The notes below the pieces were generated by a model. The model was not told where the DNA came from. It saw nothing but the letters and a program-made list of their open reading frames with translations, and did no database searches. Of a DNA stretch of 59,597 bases, positions 3,001 through 54,905 are shown piece after piece (the first letter of the stretch is position 1; each line of letters begins with the position of its first letter). The DNA comes from Planoprotostelium fungivorum (taxonomy: Eukaryota > Evosea > Variosea > Cavosteliida > Cavosteliaceae). The position numbers were made by a program, and so were the translations under genes. The stretch is from the NCBI GenBank assembly GCA_003024175.1, contig MDYQ01000183.1, positions 1 to 59,597 of the forward strand, read 5' to 3'.

Positions 3001-6000
3001 GGTGCAATTTCAGATCTGTTACGTTGTTATTAGTATCAGAGATATGCGCTCCGCAAGTTTCATTTTTTAAAACCGTACCTTACATCATGAATAATGAGGG
3101 AATCATGGGAGTTCAGAATAACCCCTCTTCCTAAAATATTGTTTCTTCCATATCCAGTTTTTTGTTAGAGCTACTGACCTGATTCCTGTTCCATTGGACT
3201 TGGCATGTCCGTGAGCACATATTTCGAAAAAAGTTAGTTTCATTTTACATTTATCTCTACACAATTTCAATAATCGGTCCATACGCATGGTCAGATCTCT
3301 TTTTTTCTTCTTCCATTCGATTCAGCGCCTTCCTTTTACTATCTTTGAGTCTTCATTCTCCTTTCTTTCTTTTAACCGTACCTTACATCTTCAAAATATG
3401 GAAAATTTTCACTTTCATCTTTTTTCCTTGTCGTTTTCATCGTTTCTCTTCACTTCCATTCGATTCAGCGTCATTGATATGCTCAGAATACATCCTTCAT
3501 CCCTTGTTATTGACTTTCACTCTCGGAAAAAGTTGTAAAAATTTTCTTTTTTTTTCGATCTACAAGGCTGTTTGTGACCCTAAGCCATGACAGGGGTGAT
3601 GGTTCAGGTATCCCTATACACCGAACCCTTGTTTTAAACCCAACATTACTTTTCGTGTTTAGACACTTTATCTTATGCAGTTTTTGACGCTGAGTCCAAT
3701 GGTGCAATTTCAGATCTGTTACGTTGTTATTAGTATCAGAGATATGCGCTCCGCAAGTTTCATTTTTTAAAACCGTACCTTACATCTTCAAAATATGGAA
3801 AATTTTCACTTTCATCTTTTTTCCTTGTCGTTTTCATCGTTTCTCTTCACTTCCATTCGATTCAGCGTCATTGATATGCTCAGAATACATCCTTCATCCC
3901 TTGTTATTGACTTCCACTCTCGGAAAAAGTTGTAAAAATTTTCTTTTTTTTTCGATCTACAAGGCTGTTTGTGACCCTAAGCCATGACAGGGGTGATGGT
4001 TCAGGTATCCCTATACACCCAACCCTTGTTTTAAACCCAACATTACTTTTCGTGTTTAGACACTTTATCTTATGCAGTTTTTGACGCTGAGTCCAATGGT
4101 GCAATTTCAGATCTGTTACGTTGTTATTAGTATCAGAGATATGCGCTCCGCAAGTTTCATTTTTTAAAACCGTACCTTACATCATGAATAATGAGGGAAT
4201 CATGGGAGTTCAGAATAACCCCTCTTCCTAAAATATTGTTTCTTCCATATCCAGTTTTTTGTTAGAGCTACTGACCTGATTCCTGTTCCATTGGACTTGG
4301 CATGTCTGTGAGCACATATTTCGAAAAAAGTTAGTTTCATTTTACATTTGTCTCTACACAATTTCAATAATCGGTCCATACGCATGGTCAGATCTCTTTT
4401 TTTCTTCTTCCATTCGATTCAGCGCCTTCCTTTTACTATCTTTGAGTCTTCATTCTCCTTTCTTTCTTTTAACCGTACCTTACATCTTCAAAATATGGAA
4501 AATTTTCACTTTCATCTTTTTTCCTTGTCGTTTTCATCGTTTCTCTTCACTTCCATTCGATTCAGCGTCATTGATATGCTCAGAATACATCCTTCATCCC
4601 TTGTTATTGACTTTCACTCTCGGAAAAAGTTGTAAAAATTTTCTTTTTTTTTCGATCTACAAGGCTGTTTGTGACCCTAAGCCATGACAGGGGTGATGGT
4701 TCAGGTATCCCTATACACCCAACCCTTGTTTTAAACCCAACATTACTTTTCGTGTTTAGACACTTTATCTTATGCAGTTTTTGACGCTGAGTCCAATGGT
4801 GCAATTTCAGATCTGTTACGTTGTTATTAGTATCAGAGATATGCGCTCCGCAAGTTTCATTTTTTAAAACCGTACCTTACATCATGAATAATGAGGGAAT
4901 CATGAGAGTTCAGAATAACCCCTCTTCCTAAAATATTGTTTCTTCCATATCCAGTTTTTTGTTAGAGCTACTGACCTGATTCCTGTTCCATTGGACTTGG
5001 CATGTCCGTGAGCACATATTTCGAAAAAAGTTAGTTTCATTTTACATTTGTCTCTACACAATTTCAATAATCGGTCCATACGCATGGTCAGATCTCTTTT
5101 TTTCTTCTTCCATTCGATTCAGCGCCTTCCTTTTACTATCTTTGAGTCTTCATTCTCCTTTCTTTCTTTTAACCGTACCTTACATCTTCAAAATATGGAA
5201 AATTTTCACTTTCATCTTTTTTCCTTGTCGTTTTCATCGTTTCTCTTCACTTCCATTCGATTCAGCGTCATTGATATGCTCAGAATACATCCTTCATCCC
5301 TTGTTATTGACTTTCACTCTCGGAAAAAGCTGTAAAAATTTTCTTTTTTTTTCGATCTACAAGGCTGTTTGTGACCCTAAGCCATGACAGGGGTGATGGT
5401 TCAGGTATCCCTATACACCCAACCCTTGTTTTAAACCCAACATTACTTTTCGTGTTTAGACACTTTATCTTATGCAGTTTTTGACGCTGAGTCCAATGGT
5501 GCAATTTCAGATCTGTTACGTTGTTATTAGTATCAGAGATATGCGCTCCGCAAGTTTCATTTTTTAAAACCGTACCTTACATCATGAATAATGAGGGAAT
5601 CATGGGAGTTCAGAATAACCCCTCTTCCTAAAATATTGTTTCTTCCATATCCAGTTTTTTGTTAGAGCTACTGACCTGATTCCTGTTCCATTGGACTTGG
5701 CATGTCCGTGAGCACATATTTCGAAAAAAGTTAGTTTCATTTTACATTTGTCTCTACACAATTTCAATAATCGGTCCATACGCATGGTCAGATCTCTTTT
5801 TTTCTTCTTCCATTCGATTCAGCGCCTTCCTTTTACTATCTTTGAGTCTTCATTCTCCTTTCTTTCTTTTAACCGTACCTTACATCTTCAAAATATGGAA
5901 AATTTTCACTCTCATCTTTTTTCCTTGTCGTTTTCATCGTTTCTCTTCACTTCCATTCGATTCAGCGTCATTGATATGCTCAGAATACATCCTTCATCCC

Positions 6001-8210
6001 TTGTTATTGACTTTCACTCTCGGAAAAAGTTGTAAAAATTTTCTTTTTTTTTCGATCTACAAGGCTGTTTGTGACCCTAAGCCATGACAGGGGTGATGGT
6101 TCAGGTATCCCTATACACCCAACCCTTGTTTTAAACCCAACATTACTTTTCGTGTTTAGACACTTTATCTTATGCAGTTTTTGACGCTGAGTCCAATGGT
6201 GCAATTTCAGATCTGTTACGTTGTTATTAGTATCAGAGATATGCGCTCCGCAAGTTTCATTTTTTAAAACCGTACCTTACATCATGAATAATGAGGGAAT
6301 CATGGGAGTTCGGAATAACCCCTCTTCCTAAAATATTGTTTCTTCCATATCCAGTTTTTTGTTAGAGCTACTGACCTGATTCCTGTTCCATTGGACTTGG
6401 CATGTCCGTGAGCACATATTTCGAAAAAAGTTAGTTTCATTTTACATTTGTCTCTACACAATTTCAATAATCGGTCCATACGCATGGTCAGATCTCTTTT
6501 TTTCTTCTTCCATTCGATTCAGCGCCTTCCTTTTACTATCTTTGAGTCTTCATTCTCCTTTCTTTCTTTTAACCGTACCTTACATCTTCAAAATATGGAA
6601 AATTTTCACTTTCATCTTTTTTCCTTGTCGTTTTCATCGTTTCTCTTCACTTCCATTCGATTCAGCGTCATTGATATGCTCAGAATACATCCTTCATCCC
6701 TTGTTATTGACTTTCACTCTCGGAAAAAGTTGTAAAAATTTTCTTTTTTTTTCGATCTACAAGGCTGTTTGTGACCCTAAGCCATGACAGGGGTGATGGT
6801 TCAGGTATCCCTATACACCCAACCCTTGTTTTAAACCCAACATTACTTTTCGTGTTTAGACACTTTATCTTATGCAGTTTTTGACGCTGAGTCCAATGGT
6901 GCAATTTCAGATCTGTTATGTTGTTATTAGTATCAGAGATATGCGCTCCGCAAGTTTCATTTTTTAAAACCGTACCTTACATCATGAATAATGAGGGAAT
7001 CATGGGAGTTCAGAATAACCCCTCTTCCTAAAATATTGTTTCTTCCATATCCAGTTTTTTGTTAGAGCTACTGACCTGATTCCTGTTCCATTGGACTTGG
7101 CATGTCCGTGAGCACATATTTCGAAAAAAGTTAGTTTCATTTTACATTTGTCTCTACACAATTTCAATAATCGGTCCATACGCATGGTCAGATCTCTTTT
7201 TTTCTTCTTCCATTCGATTCAGCGCCTTCCTTTTACTATCTTTGAGTCTTCATTCTCCTTTCTTTCTTTTAACCGTACCTTACATCTTCAAAATATGGAA
7301 AATTTTCACTTTCATCCTTTTTCCTTGTCGTTTTCATCGTTTCTCTTCACTTCCATTCGATTCAGCGTCATTGATATGCTCAGAATACATCCTTCATCCC
7401 TTGTTATTGACTTTCACTCTCGGAAAAAGTTGTAAAAATTTTCTTTTTTTTTCGATCTACAAGGCTGTTTGTGACCCTAAGCCATGACAGGGGTGATGGT
7501 TCAGGTATCCCTATACACCCAACCCTTGTTTTAAACCCAACATTACTTTTCGTGTTTAGACACTTTATCTTATGCAGTTTTTGACGCTGAGTCCAATGGT
7601 GCAATTTCAGATCTGTTACGTTGTTATTAGTATCAGAGATATGCGCTCCGCAAGTTTCATTTTTTAAAACCGTACCTTACATCATGAATAATGAGGGAAT
7701 CATGGGAGTTCAGAATAACCCCTCTTCCTAAAATATTGTTTCTTCCATATCCAGTTTTTTGTTAGAGCTACTGACCTGATTCCTGTTCCATTGGACTTGG
7801 CATGTCCGTGAGCACATATTTCGAAAAAAGTTAGTTTCATTTTACATTTGTCTCTACACAATCTCAATAATCGGTCCATACGCATGGTCAGATCTCTTTT
7901 TTTCTTCTTCCATTCGATTCAGCGCCTTCCTTTTACTATCTTTGAGTCTTCATTCTCCTTTCTTTCTTTTAACCGTACCTTACATCTTCAAAATATGGAA
8001 AATTTTCACTTTCATCTTTTTTCCTTGTCGTTTTCATCGTTTCTCTTCACTTCCATTCGATTCAGCGTCATTGATATGCTCAGAATACATCCTTCATCCC
8101 TTGTTATTGACTTTCACCCTCGGAAAAAGTTGTAAAAATTTTCTTTTTTTTTCGATCTACAAGGCTGTTTGTGACCCTAAGCCATGACAGGGGTGATGGT
8201 TCAGGTATCC
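1..8210. repeat. Satellite array, 700-bp unit
   Basis: Head-to-tail tandem array. Successive units begin at 1, 701, 1401, 2101, 2801, 3501, 3898, 4598, 5298, 5998, 6698 and 7398, with a final partial unit from 8098. Eleven units are 700 bp, one (3501-3897) is 397 bp, and the last stops after about 113 bp. Copies differ by only a few substitutions each (for example the base pair after ACAAGG near 48, 768 and 1468), so the array is homogenised or recently amplified. The unit is T-rich on this strand. Small open frames recur in every copy only because the copies are nearly identical; none looks like a protein. The array enters from beyond the left edge. It could be pericentromeric or subtelomeric satellite, which cannot be decided here. 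Confidence 0.97.
3501..3897. repeat. Deleted satellite unit (397 bp)
   Basis: This unit lacks 303 bp relative to its neighbours. A full unit carries the 16-mer AACCGTACCTTACATC twice, at 271-286 and 574-589 in the first copy, exactly 303 bp apart. The short unit keeps one copy (3771-3786) and joins the flanks of the two. This is the product expected from recombination or slippage between the two internal direct repeats. Confidence 0.95.
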
Positions 8211-8747
8211 CAAACCCCCAAACCCCGAATCTTCTAAACAATGGATGGGGTCTGAGTGTTTCCCCACCAGTCCTCCAAAAAGCAGGCTCTTCTATCTTTA
8301 GTTCAGTTAAAGAACATAACATACATTACAAACCCAACAAAAATAACGAACATGACGAAAACAACGAACATGACGAAAAAAGAGACCTAGAATACAGAAT
8401 ACACCTTCACAGGAATAGATTTAGGAAAAGACCCTGCAACCAGGAAGGGAATCAGAAATCGAGGAGAAGAAGGAAGCAAACTATTGGCAGAGGACTGAGG
8501 CATAAGAAGTTTGTACAAAGACTGAAACGGAGATATAAAGTGAGAGGACCCATCTTAAGAGAGAACATCCTAAGAGAGAATATTTTGAGAAAGTACATCA
8601 TACAAGAGTACACGGTAAGACGAGAGGACACATCGATGAGAAGACGGAGCCTCAAACATCGTCCCCCATATCATCGGAAAGCTCATTGATCCCAAAGCTG
8701 TGGACTTAAGAAGACAGATACCACCCTGACAAGAGTGATATCAATAA
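8211..8747 (+). pseudogene. Basic 5' region of retroelement (possible ORF1 remnant)
   Basis: An open frame through 8689 encodes an Arg/Lys-rich segment containing repeats of NEHDE and RENILR. It begins inside the last satellite unit without an ATG, so a real start is missing. The position, upstream of the endonuclease, and the basic composition fit the nucleic-acid-binding ORF1 of LINE-like elements, but no zinc knuckle or RRM was seen. It may be 5' UTR. Confidence 0.25.
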
Positions 8748-11700
8748 ATGCTTCACACTCAAACACTCTCTCGTCTCTCCCTCTCTACCTTTATCTCCCA
8801 TATAATAATAAGTATAAATAATATAGAACACACAGAAGAGAGAGGGCAGTTGACGAGGAAGATCACCAAAGTTGGATGTATCAATCTGAATGGCGGTTGG
8901 ATGTTCAAGAAAGACCACATGATGCAACACATGAAAGAGACAAATATTGACGTGCTGTGCATCATCAATACTAAACTGAACGACTAACAGAGCACAAATG
9001 CAAAAAGATACGACATGAAGGGATACCCTGACTATGATCTAGTAACATTTACAGCCAGCGCCAACTGGACGGATGCAACTGCCATGGCAATCATCACAAG
9101 AAGAGACATTGCTGACGCTATCACCACGGAGAGGATTGAAGACCAAAGTGTGCTAATAAAGATCAGCGGAACCAACCTCATCAAAAAGTTGCTCCTGATA
9201 TACGCCCCGGCAGACCGAACAAAAAGAAACCAATGGTGTGACTCAATTAGAGGAATCATCGAGAGGAACACCCCAGACATCATCTTGGGAGATCTGAACG
9301 AATACCCCAACCCTACATTGGACTATCACTGCCTTAATCAGAACATCGTCACTTACCCCACCATACAGGAAACCAAGCTTATCAATATTCTGACCGATAT
9401 TGGATACGCCGATACATTCAGATCGATGCATCCTACATTGAGAAAATTCACATCCATCCACCACTTCAAGTCCCCCAACAGAATCACTTCAACACGAATC
9501 AATCATATCTTCACCCTGGCACATAGAATAGAACATATATACAACTGCGACATCCACAAAGACAAGAACTTCCACTCAGACCACCATCTGATCACCGTAG
9601 AATTTCAAATAGAGACTAACCCACACCCACCACACACAGAAGCGTTGAGACACCCAACTTGTCGACAACCAAGGACGCTGTGGAAGAAATACTCCAAGTA
9701 CTTAGAGAAACATCATGGGACAGATGAGATGAACTGGTGTGACGACATCAACACCATAGAACAGAAGCTTCGAATGGATATACAAGAAGCCATCAACTGT
9801 ACCTTCCCAATAAAAGAAGAAAGGAGAACCAAACGATACAAGTTAACGAAGAAAGAGAGAGAATTAATGAGAGACCACGACAACCTTGATAGGATCTACC
9901 GAATGATAGATACAGACGAACCACTATCCTTCAAAGATATCCAAACAAGGACAATCCTCCAATCGAAATACAGATCGATCTCTAACGATCAAGGAGGAAA
10001 GACGGAACGACTACTTAACATCAACAACATCAGAAGAAAGATACGAATCAGACTACAACGAGATAAACGGACAGAAAAGAATAAAAGTATACGAAAATCG
10101 ATCGACAAGCTCTTCAAGACAATAGGGAACGACCGCAACGCATTGTACAGAATCATAGCAACGACATCTCAACGGAATGACATCACAGCAGTAACTATAG
10201 ATGACGAGATAATCTCCAAACCAACCACTGTCAAGAAAGAAGTGGCAGACAAATGGAAGCCCATCTTCACATCAGGGAGACAGATAGAGAGGATACAGAT
10301 GGATGATCAACCAAACACTATAGGATCAGGAATCACACGAATGATAACGGAGGACGATCTGGATAAGACCCTTAAGAATCTACGAAAGGACAAATCACCA
10401 GGAATAGACGATATTCCGAACGAAGCGTTGCAGTTCCTCCCAATCCAGATGAAGAGAAACCTGTTACACATGATGAACCTGATCTTAAACCAAAAGAAAC
10501 TCCCAGATATATGGAAACACTCACCGGTATCGTTGATATACAAAGATGGTCAAAAGACCAATCCGCTCAACTACCGACCCATCTCACTCCTATGTACATC
10601 ATACAAAGTTCTCTCCAGAATCATCAACGAGCGATTAAATGACGTAATAAGAACGCATCATCTCATTCAACCAGATCAACATGGATTCCAGCGAGGAAAA
10701 GGAACTCATCACAGTATAGCCGAGCACCTGGCATGTATTGAGGACTCATTAGCACATAATAAAGACCTTTACGTCATATACCTAGACTTAAAGAAAGCGT
10801 ACGACTCCGTGGAGCACAATGTATTACTGAACACGCTGTATAGATACAAATTTGATCGCTCAGCTATCGACATCATACAGATGCTCCTCAAAGACAACGT
10901 TCTACAATTCAAAACCGCTCACGGTCTATCTGATGAAATCAAGGTCAGCAGGGGTGTACGCCAAGGAGATGTCATATCACCAACATTATTCCTCCTGTTC
11001 ATCAACCCACTCATTAAACGACTTAACGAAGCGAACCTAGGGTACCAACTGACAGAGACAAGAAGAAAGAATTGCACATTTTACGCAGACGATGGCACAG
11101 TGTACGCAGATACAGAGGAGGACCTCCACAAATCATTCGAGATCGTACAGCGCTTCTCTCTGGAAACAAATATCGACATCAATCCCACAAAATCGAGCGT
11201 AGCGTGGAACACAGAAAGGCCTATCCAACCAATCTATGTACAACCCGGAAACAACAAGATGAACGAGATCGGAAAACACATACCATATCAGTATCTGGGA
11301 ATGACCGTCAACCTTGCAGCTGAATGGTCAACACAGGAAAAAGAATTGGAAAATAAATACAAACGAACAGTTCACTCCATACTACAACGAAAGTGGCTGG
11401 GCACAAACATCCACACAAGATTGATCAACACAATCGCTCAACCTATCATCACATACAGGATGCAAGGATACCCCATGAATCACGACTTTGTAGAAGGTCT
11501 GGACCAGTTCACGACACGAGCTCTACAACAAAATTCCAACATATCGAAAGGATCCGGCCCTGATTTCTGGTTCTTATACAGAGGGTTAAACAGCCTTGCA
11601 CATCTCAATATAGCAGTCAGCACCAACACCATCACCAATCTATACCAATCACTCGATCTGACCCAATTCATCCCAAATGCTATCGAACAGATGAATAAAT

Positions 11701-12695
11701 TGTTATCACCATTAGATTTACGGATCGTAAACACACACCAACAAGACGCAATCTCGCCAGAGATATTTCCAAACAGTCGAAACCTCATCAAAAGTATCAA
11801 TGCACGTCGCATCAACCATGAAACGGAGATGAACATACAAAACCTGACGCAACTGATAGGATCAAACGATGCCAGATCATTCATCGAACAAAAATTTGTC
11901 TCCCACCACCGACGATCAGAGGAGAGCAGACAGAGAACGATGAAAGAGATGGATGACTTTGTACAAATCTTGCAACAACCAATATGGCAACACACTCCGA
12001 TAGAATATATCCCTCGAACAGAACTACAACCGGAAGAGGTATTTCATCACAGAGGAAAAGTATGGATGTTCACGGACGGATCGATCAGAGAGAATAAAGG
12101 ATACGCGGCAGTCTTTATCAAAGATGGATCACCGCACAACACAGCATTTGCAATATCAGGCGTACAAGACTCCCTGAACGCCGAACTGAACGGACTACAA
12201 ACTGCACTCGAAATGTTCCCTCTGTATTTCCCAGGACTCATTTTTACCGACAGTCTAAACAGTATCCACCTGATGAACAAATGGAACCACATGACAATCA
12301 ACCAAAAGAATAGAAGTCAATACAGAGTCGTGATGGAACGTTTGATGAAGAGATACACCCAACTGAACCAGTTCACGACAGTCACAGTGACATTTGTCTA
12401 CGCTCATACATTGGATACCCCAAATAGTCTTCGTATATCAGTACAAAGAACAAAGAAGAGAAGGACGATGAGAGAGAAGTTTGGTGAGAACACCGACTTG
12501 ATCCTCAAAGGAAACCAAGCAGCCAATAAACTCGTAGCATCTATCCATGTTGACACCTCTCCTATCATGCCCATCAACTCAGACATGCCATCAATCCTAC
12601 TCCTGCACAAACAAGGTGGCGTATGGACTACCAACACAAGGAAAGACCTCCTACAACGACTACGAGACAAACTGAAACAATCCTGGTCCTCTTGA
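8748..12695 (+). pseudogene. Retroelement ORF2: endonuclease, reverse transcriptase, RNase H
   Basis: One frame runs 8748-12695 but is broken by TAA at 8985-8987; it reopens with ATG at 9015 for 1226 codons. The endonuclease start (8868-8980) keeps the INLNGG asparagine, but the usual QET catalytic glutamate reads INT. Downstream endonuclease motifs GDLN (residue 93 from 9015) and SDHH (about 188-191) are present. The reverse transcriptase has LDLKKAYDSVEH (Asp 591) and FYADD (Asp 692, 693) with GVRQGDVISP between them. RNase H begins at FTDGS (Asp 1021), followed by NAEL and FTDSLNS; the last catalytic position reads GNQAANKL, Asn where Asp is usual. The polymerase core looks intact while the endonuclease is damaged, so this copy probably cannot move on its own. 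Confidence 0.85.
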
Positions 12696-13270
12696 TGCAA
12701 GGGCCGCAGTAAGCATACCACCGACGATGGTATCGACGAGATAAACTGGTCCACGCTATCAAGACCAATCATACAATACAGTAGATACAGCAATCTACGC
12801 CATCGGATCACATGCAACCTCATATACACCAACTCACGAGTACACCAAACGCATCCTCACTTACACCCGTGGTGTGGTGCATCTACTGCGACTCTACCCA
12901 TAACGCACAAATCCCAGAGACACAAACCCACATATTCATTGACTGCCCCGCAGCGAAGGACATATGGAACGAACAATGGAAGAAGACCAGGACAACATTA
13001 GGACTCAAACATCGGCTGAACATCTTCCAACCAACACCAGACGACAAGGACCCAAAATACAACCCCCCATGGGACCCTCAATACCTGGGCCTTGTACCCA
13101 AAGATGTGGTAAGATACATAAGTGGACATAACGCAAAGAACACAAAAGCAGCTAAAACGATCATGCACCACAACATGATGACGTCGATCATTAGAATATG
13201 GGTGCAGCGATGCATCCGAAACAAACCCATCTTTGACGCCATAAAAGAAGCAAGATACACCACAGTCTAA
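12696..13270 (+). pseudogene. Retroelement ORF2 C-terminal zinc-knuckle region, frameshifted
   Basis: The frame at 12812-13270 encodes CIYC followed about 13 residues later by ETQTHIFIDCPAAKDIW. This is the CCHC-type knuckle usually found after the RNase H or reverse transcriptase of LINE-like elements. It lies in a different frame from ORF2, and 12696-12880 needs at least two frame changes (readable segments include WYRRDKLVHAIKTNH and RYSNLRHRI). The segment is therefore the tail of ORF2 separated by frame shifts, not a separate gene. Confidence 0.75.
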
Positions 13271-13651
13271 TCAACACTCTACAACTCAACACACACGCTG
13301 CTCCCGGTCATCTCAACGACCACAATGATAATAACATCAATATCTCTTCATCTAACAACTACAGCTCAAGAACACCGTGACCGACAGACACCACCACTAC
13401 CACATCCAAACCAATGACCACCCCACGATACAACCATTCGACACCACCTGAAGACAGAGGAATTGTAGATCAGACGAAGTGACATTTAGCCGAACAGAAG
13501 ACCACCCCACCACCTACTACAGCTGAATCCAGCGAGGAATTCCAGACAATGGGATACCTAGTTCTCAACTCTCTCCGCCCCAAATCGGGGAGGGCATTCC
13601 TGCATAAATCGGGAAAACTTTGAGAATAAATATTCGTAATCGTAATCGTAA
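13271..13651 (+). other. Retroelement 3' untranslated region
   Basis: No open frame continues here. The stretch is rich in CCAC and ACAC motifs and ends in (TCGTAA)x3 at 13634-13651. I take it as the element's 3' UTR and its tail repeat. Confidence 0.6.
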
Positions 13652-13701
13652 GAATATATACGCCTGGTGTTATTTCGCTTTGCAGCAGATGGTTGGTCTA
13701 G

Positions 13702-16700
13702 ATGAGATTTTTCTTGGTATTCCTCTGTATTTCTGTCTTTTCTGCCTGTGAGGTCTACGTCGATGGAGATATAGGAAGAGATGAGAGCCAATGTGGATCG
13801 CAAGAGTTACCCTGTAGGACCATCTCGAACCACAAATCGGTCTGCGTGGCACCGTCAATAGTATACACGTTGAATCAGAGTGCGCCGCTGCACATTTCAG
13901 TTTGGAGGAGAAGAGAAGGAGACCGAGAGGTGAGATGACGAAGAGATTAGAGGACTGACAATGGTTGAGATTACATTACGGTGTCTCGGGGTGACGTTGA
14001 TATTTATCAGCGGACTGGGTCAACCACTGAATTGGACAGACACGTCCATTCACGATTGCTCTTTAGACTTCAAAAACATCACCGAACTCTTTATACATCG
14101 CACGTCCTTCTTTAGCTGCAGCATTGGCTTCGAGGTGGGAGATATTCTTCGACAAGTCACCAACTCTCATTGTCAGCCGACCGCTGACATCCATTTCACA
14201 AACAACTCCATAGGCAACAACTCGGACATCAACTTGGGAAGCGTCTCATCACGTAACATCTTCTTGATGGGAAATCGGCTGTTGGATCAGTCTTCCATCA
14301 ACTTGTGGAATTGGATGGGTCAGGTACATTTAGAGGTCACAAACAACGACATGGAACGCGATGCCAAGATGATCATCAGTTGCCTCATGCGGAATATGAC
14401 CTCCATCTCCACCGTCCTTCTACGCAATCGCGGCGGATTCCTCGATTGTACGTTCGCCGACACAGACGATCTCGTCCTTGGAAGTCTCAGCCACGCAGCC
14501 ATTCTCATCTCTGCCAACTTGGACGTTCAGCTGAGCGTAGGCACCGATTCCATTCGAAGTCTCCAACTGAGTCTCTCTGATAACCATTTAGAGTCCTTCA
14601 GATACATATTGGGTACATCGTATGAGGTCCACACTACGGCCCAACGCAATCGAATTACGAATTATGATCTGAAGGTGAAATGTACGGTTCGAATGGAATC
14701 TGACGTTCGCAGCATACATTCTGCCGCTCGTATGAAACGACGTTGAATCACTCGATGGAGGACAATGACATCGATCATTTCAACTACATCGGCTGTACTA
14801 GTCGATTCAATGTCAACATCACGAACAACCGATTCCATCACACTGTTATGGCCGTAGAATCTGAATCGGATAATCATCCAGAAGCTCACGTCATTCGGCT
14901 GGAAGGAAATCAATGGCTAGAAGGCGGCAATACATCCGCTCTCTTCATCGGCAATGCTGTCAACTGTGTGTTGTACATCATCAACAACGACATCAGGGGT
15001 TACGACTCCTCCTACGGTGCAGGTGAGCCCATCACACTGAAAGGAGATCTGACGAGAGGAGGTATCAACATCTACAACGCAATTGGTTCGGATGTCTATC
15101 TCTCACACAATCGGTGAATAATGGACGAAGATGAAGAGAGCTGACGGAATCAGGATCCAAAATTGCACGGCGGCGACAGGAGCTGCCATCTCTATCGTAA
15201 TGAAGGAAGGTACCATCTCTGTGGAGGACAGCGAGTTCACCCACAACCTGGCCAGCATCAATTCCGGCGTATTGAGCGTGTGGGGTGATAATCGAAACGT
15301 GACCGTGAGAGGATGCATCATGTCACAAAATGAAGCACCTCACGCATCCATCACTTCTCTGGGAAAATTGCAGACGACCACGGTGTGAAATTCTTTCTTC
15401 TCCCTCCTGACCTGGAAAGATATCGAACAACACCATCCACGTGTCCAAGTCCAAGTCGAAAGTCGATTCGGACCACTCAGTCGTGGTCAGTGACCGGCCG
15501 ATCAGTCAGATGAATCGACTCTTCTGTCCTCCGGAGACGAAGCTGAAGCTGGATTCTTCCACTGAGCCTTATCTGTGGCTGTGTTCACCTTGCGAGGACG
15601 GAAAGTACATCCTCGGAGCGGGTACCTTGGAAAACCACAAGACGAGCAACACGAAATGCCAAGATTGTCCTTCTTATCTTCAGTGCAGCAACGGAGAGAC
15701 ACCCAAGGTGAGATCGATTCTTTCGACGTTCTCAGTTCAAATCGACGTGATCATGCCCTTCTTTTCTCAGAATAGATCTCTCGTTACATGATCATACCAC
15801 ACGCCATCTCAACGAGAACGATGGAAACACGATCGACTGACCATGTCAGACCCTCCCGGGATATTGGTGCGATCGATCGTCGACAGACAAGACCACACTC
15901 GTCTGTTACGATTGCCCCTCCGATTATTGTAAGAACTGGGTCCACAATTGGAACGACAGCTGTACGGACGGTAGGGTCGGCGTCTTGTGCGGTGAATGTG
16001 CGAAAGATCACACCTTGGGGTTCCTCTCCTCCTCTTGTATTCACAGGGACAAGTGCCACGGTGGACTCATCAGTGTCATCCTTCTCGCCCCCTTTGGCTA
16101 TATCACCTTGCTCGTTCTGCTCCCCATCGGTGATGGTTCCATCTGGAAATCAGCTTCCTTCTTCTTACAGACTTTCCCTCTGTTGGGTGAGCACCAATAC
16201 GATATCTCTTGATTATAACGAATCCATCGAAATCTATGAAATGGATCGTATTGAGATTCAAACAGTGGGAAGAGGACAGTGGAATCGAGTGAAGGGAGTC
16301 GTCTCTTTCGTCTTCGCACCCGGCAGTAACGATGTGTCATCGGGCATGGGCTTCTGTGTGGGAGACACCAACTACGTGCAGAGAGAGGGACTCTTACTCT
16401 ACATCCCCTTGGCCACCGTGGCTCTGTTCGGCCTGGCCTGTATCGCGGTCATGTTGTGGAACAGATACGGAGGAAGAAGAGACAACAGAGTCGAGTTTCA
16501 ACAGTTGTTAATGGAAAAGGAAGGAGAAGAGGAAAAGGAAGAAGGAGAAGAGGAAGAGACAGAAGAGAAGGAAGAGAAGGGGAGGAGTCGATTCAGCCGA
16601 TGCAGCACGGGGCTGATCACGTCTTGTCTCCTGGTGTACAGTGGCGTCATCTCCATCTGTCTCAAGCTCCTCTTCTGCGTTCAGGTATCCCTTCTTCTCT

Positions 16701-40512: not shown

Positions 40513-43117
40513 TCAACGAGTTGCATCCTCTTCACAAAGATTCTCCACGTTATCGTAGTGGACCTTCTCGGTCCTATCCGTAGGTTGGTCGTCACTCTCA
40601 TTGACGCCCAACATACTACAGATCTGTAGTATAAAATCGGGTCTGCCCTGAGGTTGTGTAGCCCAACACACTGACATCGTCAATCGTGTGGTATCGATAC
40701 CTTACTACTCACAAATCATCAGCCGAGCTAGTTTAAACTCCTTTTGAGGTGGTATCTGCAATCTCAGTCCTTTCGTCGTCACTCCAATGGCCACTTCAAT
40801 GCCGCTCAGCTGGGGATAAGGCTCTTGACCAGTCAATATTTCCCTGTATCGTCTTATTTCTCTTGTTCTATATCTTTGAATTCACCAGCACATGACGCCA
40901 TAACTGAAGATATCCGATTTTTTGGAATACTCTTTGTGTAGGATGGCTGAATCAAGTTGGTGAATCAAACGAAGACGATGTGAGAGACGTACCCTCAGGA
41001 GCCATTTGAGTGGACCCACGTTCGATTGCGTCTTGCCTGCCGTCTCATCGTCACCGCGGGTTCGACTCATTCCAAAGTCTGCCACTTTGATTTCACGATG
41101 TCCTGTCAGCAGGATGTTTCTCACAGCCAGATCTCTGTGTATCTGATCTTTGTCACGTTCATCATATACTCTCACTCACGCGTGCAAGTGAAGCATGCCG
41201 AAAGCTGCAACGGTTCAGTACGATTCATTGCGTGTAAATTGCACCTATCCTTCGATGAAATGGATACGCTGGGAGAGAGGAGGGTCGTTCTGGGCGATGT
41301 AACTGTCCACAGCGCCACCCGCACAGAATTCTGTCATATGGTCACGAGATGCTTCGATGTGAGATTGCCTCACCTGTGATGAGGCTGAGTGGCTGTGGAG
41401 GGAAGGTCAGGCCTACAAAAGAGACGACATGAGGATGAGCTCTCAGGTTCTGAGGTGGACTCAGATCAGGTGACGAATGAGAGATAGATCGATACCTGAA
41501 TGATGGAGACCTCCTGAAGGAAGTCTTTCAGCTGGGACTCAGTTACCATCTCTGCTTTGATTTGCTTCACAGCGACTTGTATACCCTATTATCTCTCGAT
41601 CACGACATCATATGTACTCTCTCACTCTGAACATAGCCACACAGACAACGCCGTATGCTCCTTCCGCTATCTATGTATCTTCAGTTCGAATCCTCTCGTC
41701 GTTCTCACCTTTCCCATATTTTGAAGATGATCAAAGTCGATCACGCTACGTTTCGCCGCTCCCAGCTGGATGACTGAAAAGTTGATCGAGTTGTAGGTGT
41801 TGCTGTACTTCGCGTCCCGTATCAGCACTCTCTGCCTCTGTGATCTTCTGTACATGACCAGGCTGTTGTTGGTACAATTTGTATAACGGCTGACTACCGG
41901 TAAATGCATCATGTGGTAAGAGTTGAAACTCACAAGACTTCTTGTTCACAATGTTCTGAAAGATGCTATTCTTGATCTGCATATAGTTGTGTTCTATCTG
42001 ATGTCAGAGATGAGTATATGAAAGTTTTACTTGTTTGGATGACACCCTCGTATTCATTTGTGTGGTGAACGACTCTCAATGAATCGATGGTAAAGCCAGT
42101 CGCAGAGTTCGTTTGGGTACCATATATGGGCCCAGAACAATTCATCCACGTCTCGCCCACAGACAAGAAGGACGACTGCATTTGTCAGTCGATGCAACCT
42201 CGCACGACTCACCGCAAGATTGCGAACTAATGGCGATCCGTCGGATTGCAAACTGATATTGACAAAGAGATTGTTCCTTCCAATGTAGCTTCCTAAAACG
42301 TCTGCAGCATTGAACAAATTGGAGTCGGTGAATGTACAGCCCTCGACTAAGGTAGTAGCCTGAGGTGAAGAAGGAATTCGCAACGGTCACGTTCGTGTTG
42401 CTTTCGTCTGACTGCGAGGAGATGATGAGAATTTAACTCTTCTGTAACTAGACACTCACCCATATTGCCAAAGAGTAGGAATTTTTCAGATTGGCAGTCA
42501 TTCCATTGACCATAAGACTACCCGAATGAAGGAAGATGAGTATGACAGGAGCTTGTGCGAAGTCGAACACAGTGGGACCAAAGAAAGAACAATTGGTGAA
42601 CTCCGCTTCGCTTGTCGTAAGATCAACCAGTGCCACTGGAAGTGTTTCAGTACCCATCCTCGGATGTCATCTCACGATTTGAAATATTTCCAAACGTCAC
42701 ATCGTAAAATGTTGCAATATCTCCGACGATCAAAAATGGATTGTTGTCGCCATTGGTATAGAGTTGAGCCTGCAATCTGAAGCCTTGTGCCTCAAACTCT
42801 CCGTCTCCTGCATCGCGCATAAATTGGAAGTAGCACTCGTTGATCAGGGTCTTCGAGGATCCGAGTCCAACCATCTTCAATTTGAGAGGCTTCTCGAAGA
42901 CATAGTATGGCTGAGTGCAACTCGACTCGGTGGTGTTGAAGTAGATGGTCACTTCGTCATTGGCATCCTTGACTGCCAGTGATAACACTGGAGTGGTGGA
43001 TGAGCGTAGATGGTGAGAAAATTGGCCCTCACCCTGATCGGCGTCGGGGCCTGATATTTGATATACAGAGGTGGTGGCAGAAGCTACTGTCTCTAAAAAG
43101 CAGATGCTCAACCACAT
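40513..43117 (-). CDS. Beta-helix receptor kinase, tyrosine-kinase-like
   Basis: ATG at 43117 with a signal peptide (MWLSICFLETVASATTS). The ectodomain is a run of short beta-helix-like repeats (EFTNCSFFGPTVFDF, TLVEGCTFTDSNLFNAADVL, SFLSVGETWMNCSGPIYG). The kinase domain is built from small exons: DFDHLQNMGK|GAYGVVCV, VAVKQIKAEM, HPHVVSFVGLTFPPQPLSLI, HRDLAVRNILL (near 41121-41141), KVADFGMSR, SDIFSYGVMCW, and CWATQPQGRPDFILQI near the end. HRDLAxRN is the tyrosine-kinase form of the catalytic loop, though TKL kinases can look similar. VAIK-type Lys, HRD and DFG are all present, so it should be active. I could not find a membrane helix between ectodomain and kinase. Stop at 40513-40515. Confidence 0.8.
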
Positions 43118-43526: not shown

Positions 43527-48299
<4,773 letters not shown>

Positions 48300-48906: not shown

Positions 48907-49695
48907 ATGTCGCGTGTGAATCACACCATGGAGAAGAGGGAGAAGAGTGATATGGGGACATTACAGAACGTACCGAACGACATACTGGAATACATACTGA
49001 GCAGTTACATATCTGCGAAAGATATGGTTCAGCTAGACCAAGTGTCCAGTGTCATGACAGCCAGGGTGGATCGCAGCGTGCGAACAATCATGAACCGATT
49101 CACACAGGTGAGAGACACGAGAGATTGAATCACCCTTCTCATCTTTGCATACAGAAAGCCATTTCAAAGGGAAGACACGAGATCCTCACTGACTGGTATG
49201 AACTCGAAGAGCACCACGAACAGTTCAAGAAGAACACGCCGTACGAGGCGATCATCCAAATCATGCCTGATCTTGTCACAACGCGTGATTCTCGCATGAC
49301 CGACTATGTCACCTTCTACGGAGGAGTCATCATGATGCCAAAAATCATCGGTAACCTTCACTATCTACTCGATACGTCCGAACTCTTGGAACGGGATGAT
49401 TGCAAGCAGATCGTCGGGCGGATGATGGATCAAGTGCATCGATCGTACGTGTCTCAAGGCATCAAACTCGATTCCACCACGGTGAAATCATCATGTCGAT
49501 CAGTCCACTCACTCGCATCAGCCGTACTGTACCTTCATCGAATCTTGGATAACAGCCGTTCTGAACGACACACTGTCACAAACTATTCCTCTCTTGAAGC
49601 ATCTCTTCTTTGCAGAAAGGTACGCCGACATGGAGAAGATCGTGGAGAGCAATGGCATTCGTTTCAATAACCTGAAGATTGAATGTTTTGTATAA
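48907..49695 (+). CDS. F-box-like protein
   Basis: ATG at 48907. Residues about 18-50 read LQNVPNDILEYILSSYISAK and DMVQLDQVSSVMTARV, an F-box-like pattern (LPxDIL, hydrophobic spacing, L..V). Introns lie after MNRFTQ and after IKLDSTT. The remainder has helical pairs (DWYELEEHHEQFKKNTPYEA, HLFFAERYADMEKIVESNGI) that could form a repeat solenoid, and ends NNLKIECFV with TAA at 49693-49695. F-box proteins link a substrate to an SCF ubiquitin ligase through Skp1. The substrate is unknown; its place among receptor genes may be chance. Confidence 0.6.
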
Positions 49696-49761
49696 TCTTC
49701 AAAAAAAAATTGATCAAAGAGGAAAGAGACAGAGAGACTGGCCATTCAAAAAACCAGAGAT

Positions 49762-52700
49762 CTACCTGGCAAATTCGTCCAAGAGACTCTGCAGCTTGGC
49801 ACAGTTGAGATCGTAAAGGCTGAGTAATGTGGGGTTCTTGATGACGGGTATGACTGCGATGTGTAGCCAGAAGAAGTGGGTGCTGTCGTCACCATCCACC
49901 CAAACTGACATGTTCCGTAATGTCTTGTCTATACTCGAGCTAAAACACTGAATAATTCAGACAAGTTGAATGACAACCGATGGAAGCCGCGTAAAGAAGA
50001 CAAGGGCGTCACACAATTACCTTACGAAAATTTTTACAGAGATATTCCAGTCTGCGTCCACACGAACAGAAGACGTCCTCTCAGATTTCCCGTGACGATA
50101 CACCTTCACACGGCGTCAGATGATGATGATCGTGACAAAGACATCACCTGACACTCAAGACTCTTTCCATCTGATGCAATGAACGAGAGCAAGAGACCGA
50201 AGCTCCACACGTCAGCGCTGGTGTACTGCACGCCGTATTTCACTACCTCGGGTGCCTACAGGTATTTCAAATCGACAGATGAATCTCTGTGACTCACCGT
50301 GTGGCCTGACGTCTCACTACAACGAGTTCCATCCGGTACACATCGACTGAAATTGGAGACTTTCGCTGTGACAGTACCCTCGACGATCTGCTATAAGATC
50401 TGGAGGGTGATCAGAGAAGACGAGTGGGTGGTGATCACATGATGAGGGGTGAGAAGAGTGTGGACGATGCCTTGCTCTGATACATAAACCATGGCTCTTA
50501 CCACGTCTCTGATTCTGTCGAAAATTTAGATAGGGTGATGCTCATCGGATCACATGATAAACGTAAGGGGAGACACAGAGTGAGAGAGTGAATAAGGGAA
50601 GAGACTCTTCTCGTTCATCCACTCCATCATCAGCCACTTTTCTGTTCGTTCTTCTCAGCTCTAGTCTGAACACAGCTACCTCACCTGATAGATTCTGCCC
50701 CAAGTACAAGACGATATTGGGATGATGGATCGACTGTTCCATCTCAACTTCGTTTCATCTACAATCGCACTCACTCTCATTGTCGTCGCCTCTTGCACCA
50801 ACTTTCTCACATTCCTCTCGAATTTCTTGACGGCTACGATTGTCGTTCCTTGATGCATGGCCTTCCACACTTGTACGCCGTCGTCATTGGATATCTTCTC
50901 CATCCATTCCACTTTCTCCTCCATCTCATTCTTCTCTACTTCAAACTGCGATCGTCTGTCTCTGTTTCGCGCGTGGAGAAAGGTTCACCTGACGGATGCT
51001 GACTTTACGGCGGTAAATGATGATGCCGATGATGATGGTGATGATGATGACGGCAGCAGCCACGCAACAGATGATGATGATGATGAACGGGGGGATCGTG
51101 CTGCGGTCTGCAACTCTCTCGCTGGGTATCTGATTGGGCCTCGCACCGATGGAGAAATTCGTCAGATGATTCGTCTGACAGATGGCGGCATCATCCACGG
51201 TGATGAGTCGACATCCATCGGTCGACCAGCCGTTCTGAGAACCATTCCAATATTGACAAACAGCATCTGATATCTTTGAATCATCTGGTGATGAATGCGA
51301 CTCACGGTGACCAGACGGAACAGCTTGGATGATGCCCATCGAAATGTTGATGTGCTGTCTGGCATCTGTGACATCCATTTCGATACCACTTCCATCGTAC
51401 ACGTTGACTCCAACCAATCGACTGTATCTATCTCTTCCATCAATCGTCTCAACGTAAAGTGCAGTTCACATCGTTTCGTTGGATAGAGACAGAAACGGGT
51501 TCACAGATGATGAGATCAATGCAACGGACACTGTGCGATGTTATTGTTTCGTTTTCATCTCCCAATCACCTTGCGATGAGAAAGCAGAGACTGGCAGACT
51601 GACAGAGACGTTCTCATGAACGATGGAGTTGTAGATGGATTCTCCGGTCAGATTGTATGTCATCACACTGATGGATACATTCTTCGAAGTGTATTCGAAA
51701 ATAGGTGAAGTTCGCACGACCGCTGAAATCACGGCTGAAATCAGCTTGACCGTCTGCAATCAATCAGTCTCGTTACGATTCAGTTCCTCTTCGCACGGTG
51801 AGATTGGCGGAGTCGATCAGTCCAGCGTCCAGCACGTTCTGTACATCATTTAGATCATGGTCATCCATCTGATGAGCTCATCGTCTCACTTTGGCATCCA
51901 GTACGGTTAGCTTTGTGTTGCCATTGAACAATTGGTCGATCTGTTGCTGATTGCACGGTGCATAAGAGACGATGCACAGAGAAGAGGTGATCAACGAAGG
52001 ATAACAATGTGACACATCGATCTGGCAATCTCGGATCTGATCTACAGACACTGTAAGTCCAGTGCTGGTGATGTTCTGCCAATCTATTCCAATCATCTGA
52101 TATCTATCAATACCACTGAAGATCGGCGCAATTGAATCTCACACGAAGAGACGTGACGTTCGCTACTCTGATGGAGACGTTACCGTTCAGAATTGCGGCC
52201 GAGCAGTTGATGAGAGTGATATTGTTACCGAAACCAGTGTAATCTATATGGAAATCGTCGATCGTCCCCGATATATAGATCGTAGCATTCTCTGAGATAT
52301 TGGCGGCAGCATTCAACACTACATTGAGTTATTTCGGCACAATTACACCAGACGATTTTACCTCCAGTGGCATTACTGTTAGGAAAGATAGTATAATGAT
52401 CTGAACTCGTCAAATGGATTGAAGATGAAAGGGCTTACCATCATATGTAAGAGTGAAGGGAGTCACTCGATTCAAAGATGTGATATTGCCGTGATACGTC
52501 TCTCCTGGTCTCACCAAATTGCATCCGAAACATGTCTGGCCTGCATACAATCGTATGTACAGATTTGTTCCTTGAACTCGAACGACCTTCGTTCCTTCAA
52601 TATTAAACACGCGATATTGAAAGCTACCTGACAATGTAGCCGAATATCATCGATATTGCAATTCATTGGCATGGACGAATCGAATCCTGAAGAACATGAA

Positions 52701-54905
52701 TCGAGAAGCGAAAGATGCGTCAAATGATGGTCACGATGAACTCACCTGTTCCAGTTAAGATGACAGTGGAGTTGAAAGGAAGAGTTATAGGGATAGACAA
52801 TGGAGAGACAACACTCAGCGGGGCAAATTCTGTGATCAGGAACGAATCGAGGAAGATCGAGTGATCACTGACATCACTTCCCACTTGACACATGTATGGA
52901 TCACTCCACACACCCACGCGATACCTATCTCTTCATCACCCTTCCGTAACCCGAAACTCTGTCACTCACAAAGTCTCGTTCGTGGATGGCCAATAGGCGA
53001 CGGCTGATGTCCACGGGTTTCCTTGCGTCGTCTTGATGGATACGACGTCTCTGTTGCTGTCGTCGTTGACAGAGATCCTACCGGCAGTACCGTTCCATCT
53101 ACCATCGTAGAAGAGAGGGGGACCACCGTCCGTGCGTGAAGCGTACATGAATTGAAATCGATAAGCTGTATAGGGTCGTAGTGTGACCCTCTGTTCGATG
53201 TAATGACAGGACACTGGCTCGTGGTGAGATGTAGAGAGAGATTGAATCTCTCACTCCACTTGGATTGAATCAAGGCGAAATTTGATCTCTTCGTCGATTG
53301 CGATACACCGAAAGGATGCCTATATCTCCTATCGTACGGTGAGGAGGTGGTCTTCACGTAGCGCAGGCTCACCCTCCCAACACGGGTAATCGAATGAAGG
53401 ATAATAACCAGATGTAGGCCCATCTTCGAAATCTGGGTTAAGGAGAGATCCAGTGGTAGACACTGTAAGAATATCAAAAGACGATCCGGATGAAAGAATC
53501 GAAACACACCAAAATGTGTATGCTGTAGTGCCGTTTGATCGATGAGTATGGTCTCATCATCAGAGTACATCGACGATATGGAAATGTTCACGAACGTCAG
53601 CTGGTTCAGAGTGAAGGGAAAAGAATGATCGATCCACGGTGACGACGAATTGCTGTAGATGGACCAAGAGAGGGAAGAACCAAGAAAAGACAGTGCGATA
53701 TTTGCTCCTTGATCTCCCTGAAACGATCTTCCGGCAGCTGAGACAGTGAGAGAGCGAAGGATGAAGATTGGCACCTTGCAGTGTGAAATTATAGTAACCA
53801 GCAGTAAGGAGTAGATGCGTGGAGATGGTCGATGTGCTCTGCAAGCTGATAACGATCAGTTGAAATCAGAAGAGGCATCAGCAATGCATGTCAGAGACTC
53901 ACAATATGAAAGGAGAGCGACCAGCAGTATTAGAGAATCCTCCACCGGTCGAAACACCAGACAGATTGAGAGGAAGAGGTCCATACGTCCAAGGGGGAAG
54001 GTAGGGCGGCTGATACTTGTATGTACCATTACCGATCTGTAGGTTGTCGTACATTTTGATGGGATTCAGACCGTTAAAATAGATGGAGGGCTTGCCGTAC
54101 GTGTCGTAATCGACGACACCGTAAGTGCAACCTCTAGATTGACTACCACTACCCGCGTAATTGACTCCGACGTAGTAGAAGAACGTGTTGGTCACTTGGT
54201 ACATCTGACCGACACGCCAGACCGAAGAATTGGTGCAGCTGCGGCAGTCGGTGGTGGGACACGAATATCTGATGACGAGTCAGCCGAAACGAAGATAGGA
54301 GAAGGTACCTGGTGATGTATGCGTCTTGTTGGCCCTCTGAACATGAGTCATTTGAGAGGAAATGAGATCGCGTCACCTGTCTGTTGGAGGCTCATTCGAG
54401 CTACACCCATGAGGGGGTTGGTGTCGTCATATACCGAGCAGTATTGAGACAAGGTTGCTATGATCCGAAAGACATTCACGCATGCCTTCGACTCGCAGAA
54501 GATCTGCAGAACACCGTCATACTGCGTGGGCTGGGATTCGATGGTGACTTCGATTCCGTTCGAGCAACCGAGACCCCAGCGGGATTGATTGATGGAAGGT
54601 CCAGAGCAATCCGATGTGTTGAATGTCCATTCTGAACCACATGAACATCTGCTTCGACATAGAACCGCCTCACTCGTGACGCTTGCGGAAGAAGAATTCG
54701 AGGACCATAAGAAGTATAATCCGTTGTCTGTCTCTGGGTAACAGAAGCTGGGGTTGATAGGGTAGAAGCTCGCCGATAACATCCATCCGGCGCAACTCTG
54801 CCGGGTGATGACCTGAACGTACTGACTGAAGATCACAGCTACGAAGAGGAGTAGGATGATCAGGCGTGGCTGGTGCATCTGGTGGCTCTTGAGGATGGAA
54901 CACAT
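49762..54905 (-). CDS. GPS-domain single-pass receptor pseudokinase
   Basis: ATG at 54905; HQPRLIILLLFVAVIFSQYV is the signal segment. The ectodomain (about 54800-51300) is Cys- and sequon-rich and beta-rich (CGSEWTFNTSDCSGPSINQS, PYTAYRFQFMYASR). At about 51262-51150 lies CQYWNGSQNGWSTDGCRL, then about 13 residues, then NHLTNFSIGA. This is a GPS motif with the HL/T autoproteolysis site; one of four usual Cys is absent. One helix follows (PPFIIIIICCVAAAVIIITI), then a kinase domain: VAVKKFERNVRKL keeps the Lys, but the catalytic loop reads VHTLLTPHH instead of HRDLxxxN and the DFG position reads KVSNFSRC. DVWSFGLLL and an APE-like PEVVKYG remain. The last exon ends AKLQSLLDEFAR, stop 49762-49764. 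Catalysis looks lost, so signalling would be by scaffolding. Confidence 0.8.

Follow-up and report, generated by a model that had tools for sequence, protein, structure and literature searches.

The 59,597-nucleotide contig MDYQ01000183.1 of Planoprotostelium fungivorum, the whole of which was analysed and is called the window here, carries a gene for a putative receptor in which a GPS motif, a single membrane helix and a kinase-like domain devoid of its catalytic residues are predicted to lie in one protein. The initial annotation of this locus regarded such a protein as an unusual architecture. The combination in one gene has stood, but not its isolation: judged by sequence, the gene belongs to a set of roughly 140 or more genes for single-pass receptors in this genome (36.9 Mb in 471 contigs, the window being contig C128 of the search). 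The predicted architecture, the loss of catalytic residues and the selection acting on the kinase region can all be read in the DNA itself. With moderate confidence, we consider the whole to be best explained by a family of single-pass GAIN/GPS receptors with a kinase fold that works without catalysis, which would act as self-cleaved, tethered sensors and regulate partner kinases allosterically.

The receptor gene of the window and its paralogue

The gene lies on the minus strand, as do all of its parts given below. Our own spliced model extends from about 54905 to 50017 and comprises about 22 exons separated by introns of 39-123 nucleotides. It comes from an exon-chaining program for which loci of the family itself served as the training set (median intron 45 nucleotides), and several kinase exons were set by hand according to landmarks. 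The order of the predicted parts is signal peptide, ectodomain of about 700 residues, GAIN-like region, GPS with the tripeptide HLT, one membrane helix and kinase domain. A search with PF01825 and kinase profiles had been recommended, and both were matched in the window protein: at E 0.01, Pfam finds the GPS (40.3 bits), PK_Tyr_Ser-Thr (PF07714, 60.2 bits) and Pkinase (PF00069, 49.5 bits), and nothing besides these.

The first exon of the model (54674-54905, about 77 residues; own gene model and its translation) has a start codon and a signal-peptide-like hydrophobic stretch, MHQPRLIILLLFVAVIFS. The ectodomain exons (51839-54631; gene model) have no Pfam match. They are followed by the GAIN-like region of about 134 residues (51306-51838; profile alignments), which reads ..VSISVMTYNL..LVGVNVYDGSGIEMDV..INISMG... 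The GPS motif is located at 51148-51261, where the PF01825 score of 45.1 bits exceeds the cut-off of 22.5. It contains CQYW, DGC and NHLTNFS just as first quoted, and the predicted self-cleavage tripeptide, HL^T, occupies 51160-51168. One strongly hydrophobic segment follows the GPS, with a best 19-residue mean hydropathy of 3.56; this is the predicted membrane helix (51013-51087), in agreement with the single helix originally proposed.

The N-lobe exon of the kinase domain (50775-50945; profile and landmarks) carries the VAVK lysine, VAVK being at 50837-50826. The next exon, SIHHPNIVLYLGQNLS (50685-50733), was skipped by the gene-model program and placed by hand; the one after it reads KWLMMEWMNEKSL.. 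(50554-50641; gene model). The catalytic loop is contained in one exon (50439-50514), in which HTLL (50462-50451) takes the place of HRDL, and H that of the catalytic Asn. The following exon (50298-50390; landmarks and translation) has SNFS (50357-50346) for DFG, and a further one (50148-50255; landmarks) has APEV and DVWSFG. The last exon of the window copy (50017-50103; comparison with the paralogue on contig C327, called C327 here) ends in ..NISVKIFVR and a stop codon.

The catalytic-loop exon was interpreted through its equivalent in C327. In one alignment of C327 with LRRK2, IVHTLLTPHH stands against IIYRDLKPHN and KVSNFS against KIADYS, and the letters of the window are identical. Because HTLL and SNFS align with the HRD-type loop and the DYS of LRRK2, other residues occupy the positions of the catalytic Asp, the Asn of the loop and the metal-binding Asp alike. 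The kinase fold with HTLL and SNFS, as initially described, is borne out by these positions and by the scores of both kinase profiles. C327 matches PF07714 with 84.0 bits, and the best 60 of its 954 matches in the PDB include LRRK2, Src-family, TYK2, CSK and Eph kinases. Alternative exons that would supply HRD and DFG had been named as a finding that could overturn the dead kinase. The minus strand of 49500-51200 was searched for HxDxxxxN, [HY]RD and D[FYL]G; HRD was found once, inside a predicted intron, and D[FYL]G was not found. Such exons were therefore rejected; the recurrence of the architecture with similar spacing in most of 150 loci also argues against them.

Window copy and C327 are 92.7% identical over 4,909 nucleotides. 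This identity stops near window position 50023, and the frame has its stop at 50019-50017; of the limits first drawn for the locus, 49762 and 54905, the upper was kept and the lower lacks support. The final kinase segment of C327 (..ECTEEEPRKRPSFFNIGKRLK..) is missing from the window copy. A stop codon at 50393-50391, just before the SNFS exon, lies in a frame that is open in C327, and a nearby downstream acceptor would avoid it. The window copy may thus be damaged, both by truncation at its 3' end and by an in-frame stop, and for this reason it is a poor type specimen and C327 a better one. Its relation to the complete C327 gene is probably that of a recent, damaged duplicate or of a divergent allele.

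The two gene models concur in most exons; they differ around 53.9-53.25 kb and at the start, where the C327 model begins differently from the first exon of the window model. No frame-breaking indel was found in the 16 of the 22 exons that were compared, ten of which precede the GPS exon. Six of these 16 (window 52924-51470, compared with L151) are 100% identical to C327, against differences of 1-13% in the remaining ten; gene conversion may therefore have taken place recently. The ratio of nonsynonymous to synonymous substitution rates (dN/dS) between the two copies is 0.19 in the six kinase exons (dN 0.033, dS 0.17; 192 codons), where there is no indel. It is 0.34 in the last GAIN exon together with the GPS and the helix (130 codons), and 0.16, 0.16 and 0.10 in three ectodomain exons, for which only in-frame segments were used.

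A genome-wide family of single-pass receptors

The genome search with PF01825 gave at least 150 GPS matches, all above the cut-off; 150 of the 176 candidates were scored, which makes 150 a lower bound. The GPS of locus L138 contains a stop codon, and this locus may be a broken copy. Each site was taken with up to 250 nucleotides before and up to 1,350 nucleotides after the GPS, a few being cut by contig ends, and the 150 sites form 147 clusters at 98% identity. A genome search with PF07714 scored 134 of 1388 candidates, and the DNA after each GPS was read instead. The profile used was made by aligning 33 family loci and four of the genome's kinases that have no GPS match, five loci then being dropped, and three frames were scanned after each GPS.

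A kinase-like domain was found downstream of the GPS in 144 of the 150 loci at a summed score of 15 bits or more, and in 135 at 25 bits or more. Among the loci absent from the aligned set, 111 of 117 score at least 15 bits, and none of 300 null sequences (150 reverse strands and 150 shuffles) gave a match. The catalytic loop lies 764-980 nucleotides from the start of the GPS in those 130 loci whose loop score is strong. The spliced models predict one transmembrane-like segment after the GPS in 134 loci, none in eight, two in eight and three or more in no locus; the counts of zero and two may be splice errors. Pfam found GPS and kinase together in all of seven other members for which the protein from GPS to kinase was searched. 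Another GPS gene lies within 20 kb in 68 of the 150 cases, and ten of the genes are on contig C351; this clustering fits an expansion by local duplication.

Proposed mechanism and its alternatives

The receptors are proposed to begin with a variable ectodomain, often made of leucine-rich repeats (LRR) in the sample described below, followed by a GAIN-type region that ends in a cleavage-competent GPS. One membrane helix would connect these parts to a kinase domain resembling tyrosine kinases or tyrosine kinase-like kinases, its fold kept and its catalytic and/or metal-binding Asp lost in nearly all readable members. The GPS would cut itself and the two halves would remain joined non-covalently until a ligand or a pulling force strips or rearranges the outer half. 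The freed stalk, helix and pseudokinase would then shift their oligomeric state, and the pseudokinase would allosterically switch a catalytically active partner kinase, possibly an intact member of the same family. Receptor kinase domains are able to act without catalysis through the allosteric activation of a partner. Such non-catalytic action of plant receptor kinase domains, with EFR activating BAK1 allosterically, is described in an excerpt of PMC11259431. Chances are about even that these proteins constitute a receptor class apart from the G-protein-coupled receptors (GPCRs), in which more than 140 genes have come from a catalytic ancestor and serve as non-catalytic sensors of prey, kin or surfaces that pair allosterically with a few active kinases.

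The ectodomains were sampled by modelling 3.1 kb upstream of 14 loci, of which 13 were searched with Pfam (L030 was left out). LRRs score above the cut-off in nine of them (L080, L036, L060, L004, L061, L065, L103, L017 and L086) and a right-handed beta-helix below the cut-off in two (L126 and L098); the remaining two (L146 and L041) have no Pfam match. The spliced window protein has no LRR match in Pfam. Such large and diverse ectodomains, placed before a GPS competent for cleavage, would also be expected if the receptors were mainly shed or cleaved adhesins in which the kinase fold serves only trafficking, endocytosis or anchoring. We regard this as unlikely, if not extremely so, as landmarks of the kinase are kept beyond the apparent needs of an anchor: APE has its Glu in 111 of 115 readable loci, and DVWSFG has its Asp in 80 of 114 loci and a His in 27.

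The cleavage tripeptide is HLT in 146 of the 150 GPS motifs, HFT in one and HVS in three; the latter (L147, L149 and L150) probably run into an intron donor. With HLT so widely kept, the GPS of the family is predicted to be competent for cleavage. Its second and fourth cysteines (Cys2 and Cys4) are both kept in 114 loci; 17 loci, including the window and C327, lack only Cys4, and 17 more lack both, in a raw tally that sets aside the misread rows L032 and L136 and is uncorrected for kinship. Cys2 is absent from no locus that retains Cys4, as would be expected if the two formed a disulfide. Some animal GPS domains escape cleavage, and the cysteine losses could mean that the GPS is likewise a structural relic, left uncut. 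HLT, however, is retained also in the members without Cys4, and we judge a relic to be distinctly unlikely.

Homology of the region before the GPS to GAIN domains is likely. When a 14-sequence alignment of the GAIN region with the GPS was searched against the PDB, all 23 matches were adhesion GPCRs, the best of them colinear over profile positions 10-176 of 180. The GAIN region without the GPS, compared by hhalign with the GAIN segments of adhesion GPCRs, gave a probability of 48.7. Our own hhalign run of the same comparison scored 26.8, whereas 100 column shuffles reached 16.6 at most and reversal gave 11.7.

The kinase motifs of the family were read with the profile and in a second pass by position matrices. 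Readable loci retain the HRD Asp in 12 of 138 cases and the DFG Asp in 28 of 137; both are kept in six of 136 and neither in 102 of 136. Counted by cluster, the corresponding figures are 11/135, 27/134, 5/133 and 100/133. The near-copies L023 and L024, which keep both Asp, are without the His and the Asn. By eye, nine of ten kinases from this genome that lack an adjacent GPS match retain the HRD and DFG Asp motifs, although these ten were picked for long open matches, a choice biased towards active kinases. Some known divergent kinases catalyse by unusual means, as exceptions, and the domains described here might likewise still phosphorylate by an unusual route; the VAVK lysine is kept in 96 of 106 readable loci, and the Glu of APE, as noted above, in almost all. 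This is quite improbable, since the replacements are highly varied (R, Q, S, A, N, H, I, L and others for the HRD Asp; G, C, S, N, A and others for the DFG Asp) and do not suggest a substitute catalyst.

Two smaller groups differ in their motifs. L090, L106, L126, L140 and L145 have HTD and the loop Asn, with AGFG or SGFG for DFG; the catalytic Asp is kept and the metal-binding Asp lost, possibly a half-way state. A separate group (L002, L005-L010, L014-L017, L022-L024 and L029), of which a large part lies on contigs C1, C196 and C335, has WDFR or WDLR in place of DFG, and the profile recognises neither HRD nor VAVK in it. It has the most degenerate kinase fold of the family.

A FastTree phylogeny was calculated from the kinase columns aligned by hidden Markov model in 138 sequences, ten of which are kinases without a GPS match. 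The members with intact motifs share a single region of this tree, L148 and L132 being close to each other and L098 and L100 near them, beside HTD members that have lost the DFG Asp. Large HTxL groups are situated elsewhere, and support falls below 0.75 at several deep nodes. An active ancestor with subsequent loss and radiation is compatible with the tree, which is no proof of either a single loss event or one clade comprising the GPS receptors.

Purifying selection acts on the kinase regions. After masking of poorly aligned windows, 153 pairs from 84 loci have a median dN/dS of 0.17 and a maximum of 0.38; without masking, 207 pairs have a median of 0.21 and a maximum of 0.53. Where neither member of a pair keeps either Asp, the medians are 0.18 (131 masked pairs) and 0.21 (167 unmasked pairs). 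None of L098, L100, L132 and L148 is in the pair sets. Neutral decay is no general account of the dead motifs. For the window gene alone, the stop in a frame open in C327 and the loss of the last kinase segment might indicate that the kinase looks dead because the gene is a decaying pseudogene. The complete C327 gene, however, has the same HTLL and SNFS, its kinase exons show the low dN/dS and the absence of indels given above, and the motif losses are family-wide, with purifying selection also among pairs without both Asp. The likely damage of the window copy therefore does not explain its dead motifs, and decay, to which we assign a very slight probability, was rejected as their cause. That a GPS membrane protein and a kinase encoded by two adjacent genes were misread as one, which the initial annotation had named as a refuting outcome, has next to no probability: the introns are predicted and the splicing comes from models, but order and strand are the same in 144 of the 150 loci, and the spacing of GPS and catalytic loop is similar in the 130 loci given above.

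Several observations weigh against self-cleaved sensors with a non-catalytic kinase fold. HxD, the Asn and the DFG Asp are all kept in four of 136 members (L098, L100, L132 and L148), and the family is therefore not uniformly dead; given the frequent retention of the VAVK lysine, nucleotides may still be bound. L153 (G000:C27:45500-46450), a kinase-like sequence with no GPS match and no HRD or DFG Asp, nests inside the family in the tree, so that the GPS receptors do not form a clean clade of their own. A kinase match is absent at six of the 150 loci, L003 (at a contig end), L052, L053, L074, L081 and L104. The GAIN region without the GPS gave no match below E 0.86 in a profile search of the PDB; the GAIN profile PF16489 also gave no match, which is uninformative as its control was equally silent. 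The pairs behind the family dN/dS values overlap and are not independent. All exon models are predicted, and some of their splice sites were set by hand.

Relation to known receptors and other features of the window

The proteins have sequence features of receptor pseudokinases, namely a kinase fold after a single helix, loss of the HRD and DFG Asp, and selection on the dead domain. They share with adhesion GPCRs a GPS with HLT, a GAIN-like region and a large ectodomain ahead of it, and with the Polycystin-1 family a GPS ahead of the membrane part. Adhesion GPCRs, however, have seven helices and Polycystin-1 has eleven, whereas these proteins have one, followed by a kinase-like domain. The animal receptor pseudokinases HER3, ROR and PTK7 are also single-pass proteins with a kinase fold devoid of catalytic residues; to our knowledge they have no GPS, and here nearly a whole family of more than 100 is dead. 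As far as we know, activation by the tethered agonist of GAIN domains has been studied almost wholly in seven-transmembrane (7TM) receptors. With a large natural family that carries the GAIN module on one helix, it can be asked if this module functions in the absence of a GPCR. Moreover, about 130 related receptors with broken kinase motifs stand beside four intact ones, with selection visible, so that a non-catalytic role of pseudokinases can be tested by comparison.

The nearest design among the literature matches is that of the 7TM-kinase fusions described in an excerpt of PMC12716839: the choanoflagellate GPCR-TKL/K and GPCR-TK and those of oomycetes and amoebozoans. These likewise join a receptor of the GPCR world to a kinase, but they have seven helices where the present proteins have one and a mostly dead kinase. 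The single-pass isoform of Drosophila Cirl is also a GAIN receptor with one membrane helix; in the excerpt of PMC13197933 it is an isoform of a 7TM gene, and that excerpt mentions no kinase. Plant LRR receptor kinases resemble the family in the LRR ectodomain (nine of the 13 sampled relatives), in the one helix and, by analogy with the excerpt of PMC11259431, in an allosteric kinase fold; they differ in that the present family has a GAIN/GPS module and has lost the HRD and DFG Asp, and that the member in the window has no LRR match. An excerpt of PMC10445921 reports no GAIN domains in the family 2 GPCRs of Amoebozoa. If the genome is amoebozoan, GPS modules would sit on kinase-type receptors instead of on the family 2 GPCRs that this excerpt covers. 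PMC7852580 has a GPS entry in a domain list. The receptor design may be new: among the literature matches listed, none concerned GPS, one helix and kinase in one protein by its title or the start of its abstract, an absence that carries little weight. The pairing of GPS and kinase may already appear in automatic database annotation.

The window contains two more kinase matches, at 40633-41337 on the minus strand and 47674-47925 on the plus strand, with no listed GPS match beside them. The first shares its score, length and stop pattern with a match at G000:C225:2112-2816, and part of the window may therefore be duplicated in the assembly or in the genome. Scans of the window for tRNA genes and Rfam families found nothing. 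A long open frame at 8988-12692 on the plus strand matches reverse transcriptase (PF00078, 137.5 bits) and RNase H (PF00075, 45.1 bits); at a guess, it is a retroelement of the type without long terminal repeats. Strand composition is strongly biased in 1-14000 and the bias flips near 8000, the AT skew being about -0.25 before this point and 0.25 to 0.32 after it. At 3374-4183 a unit of 397 bases occurs in two tandem copies that are 99% alike. Just upstream of the receptor gene and on the same, minus strand, 55462-56121 matches beta-carotene 15,15'-dioxygenase (PF15461, 72.1 bits).

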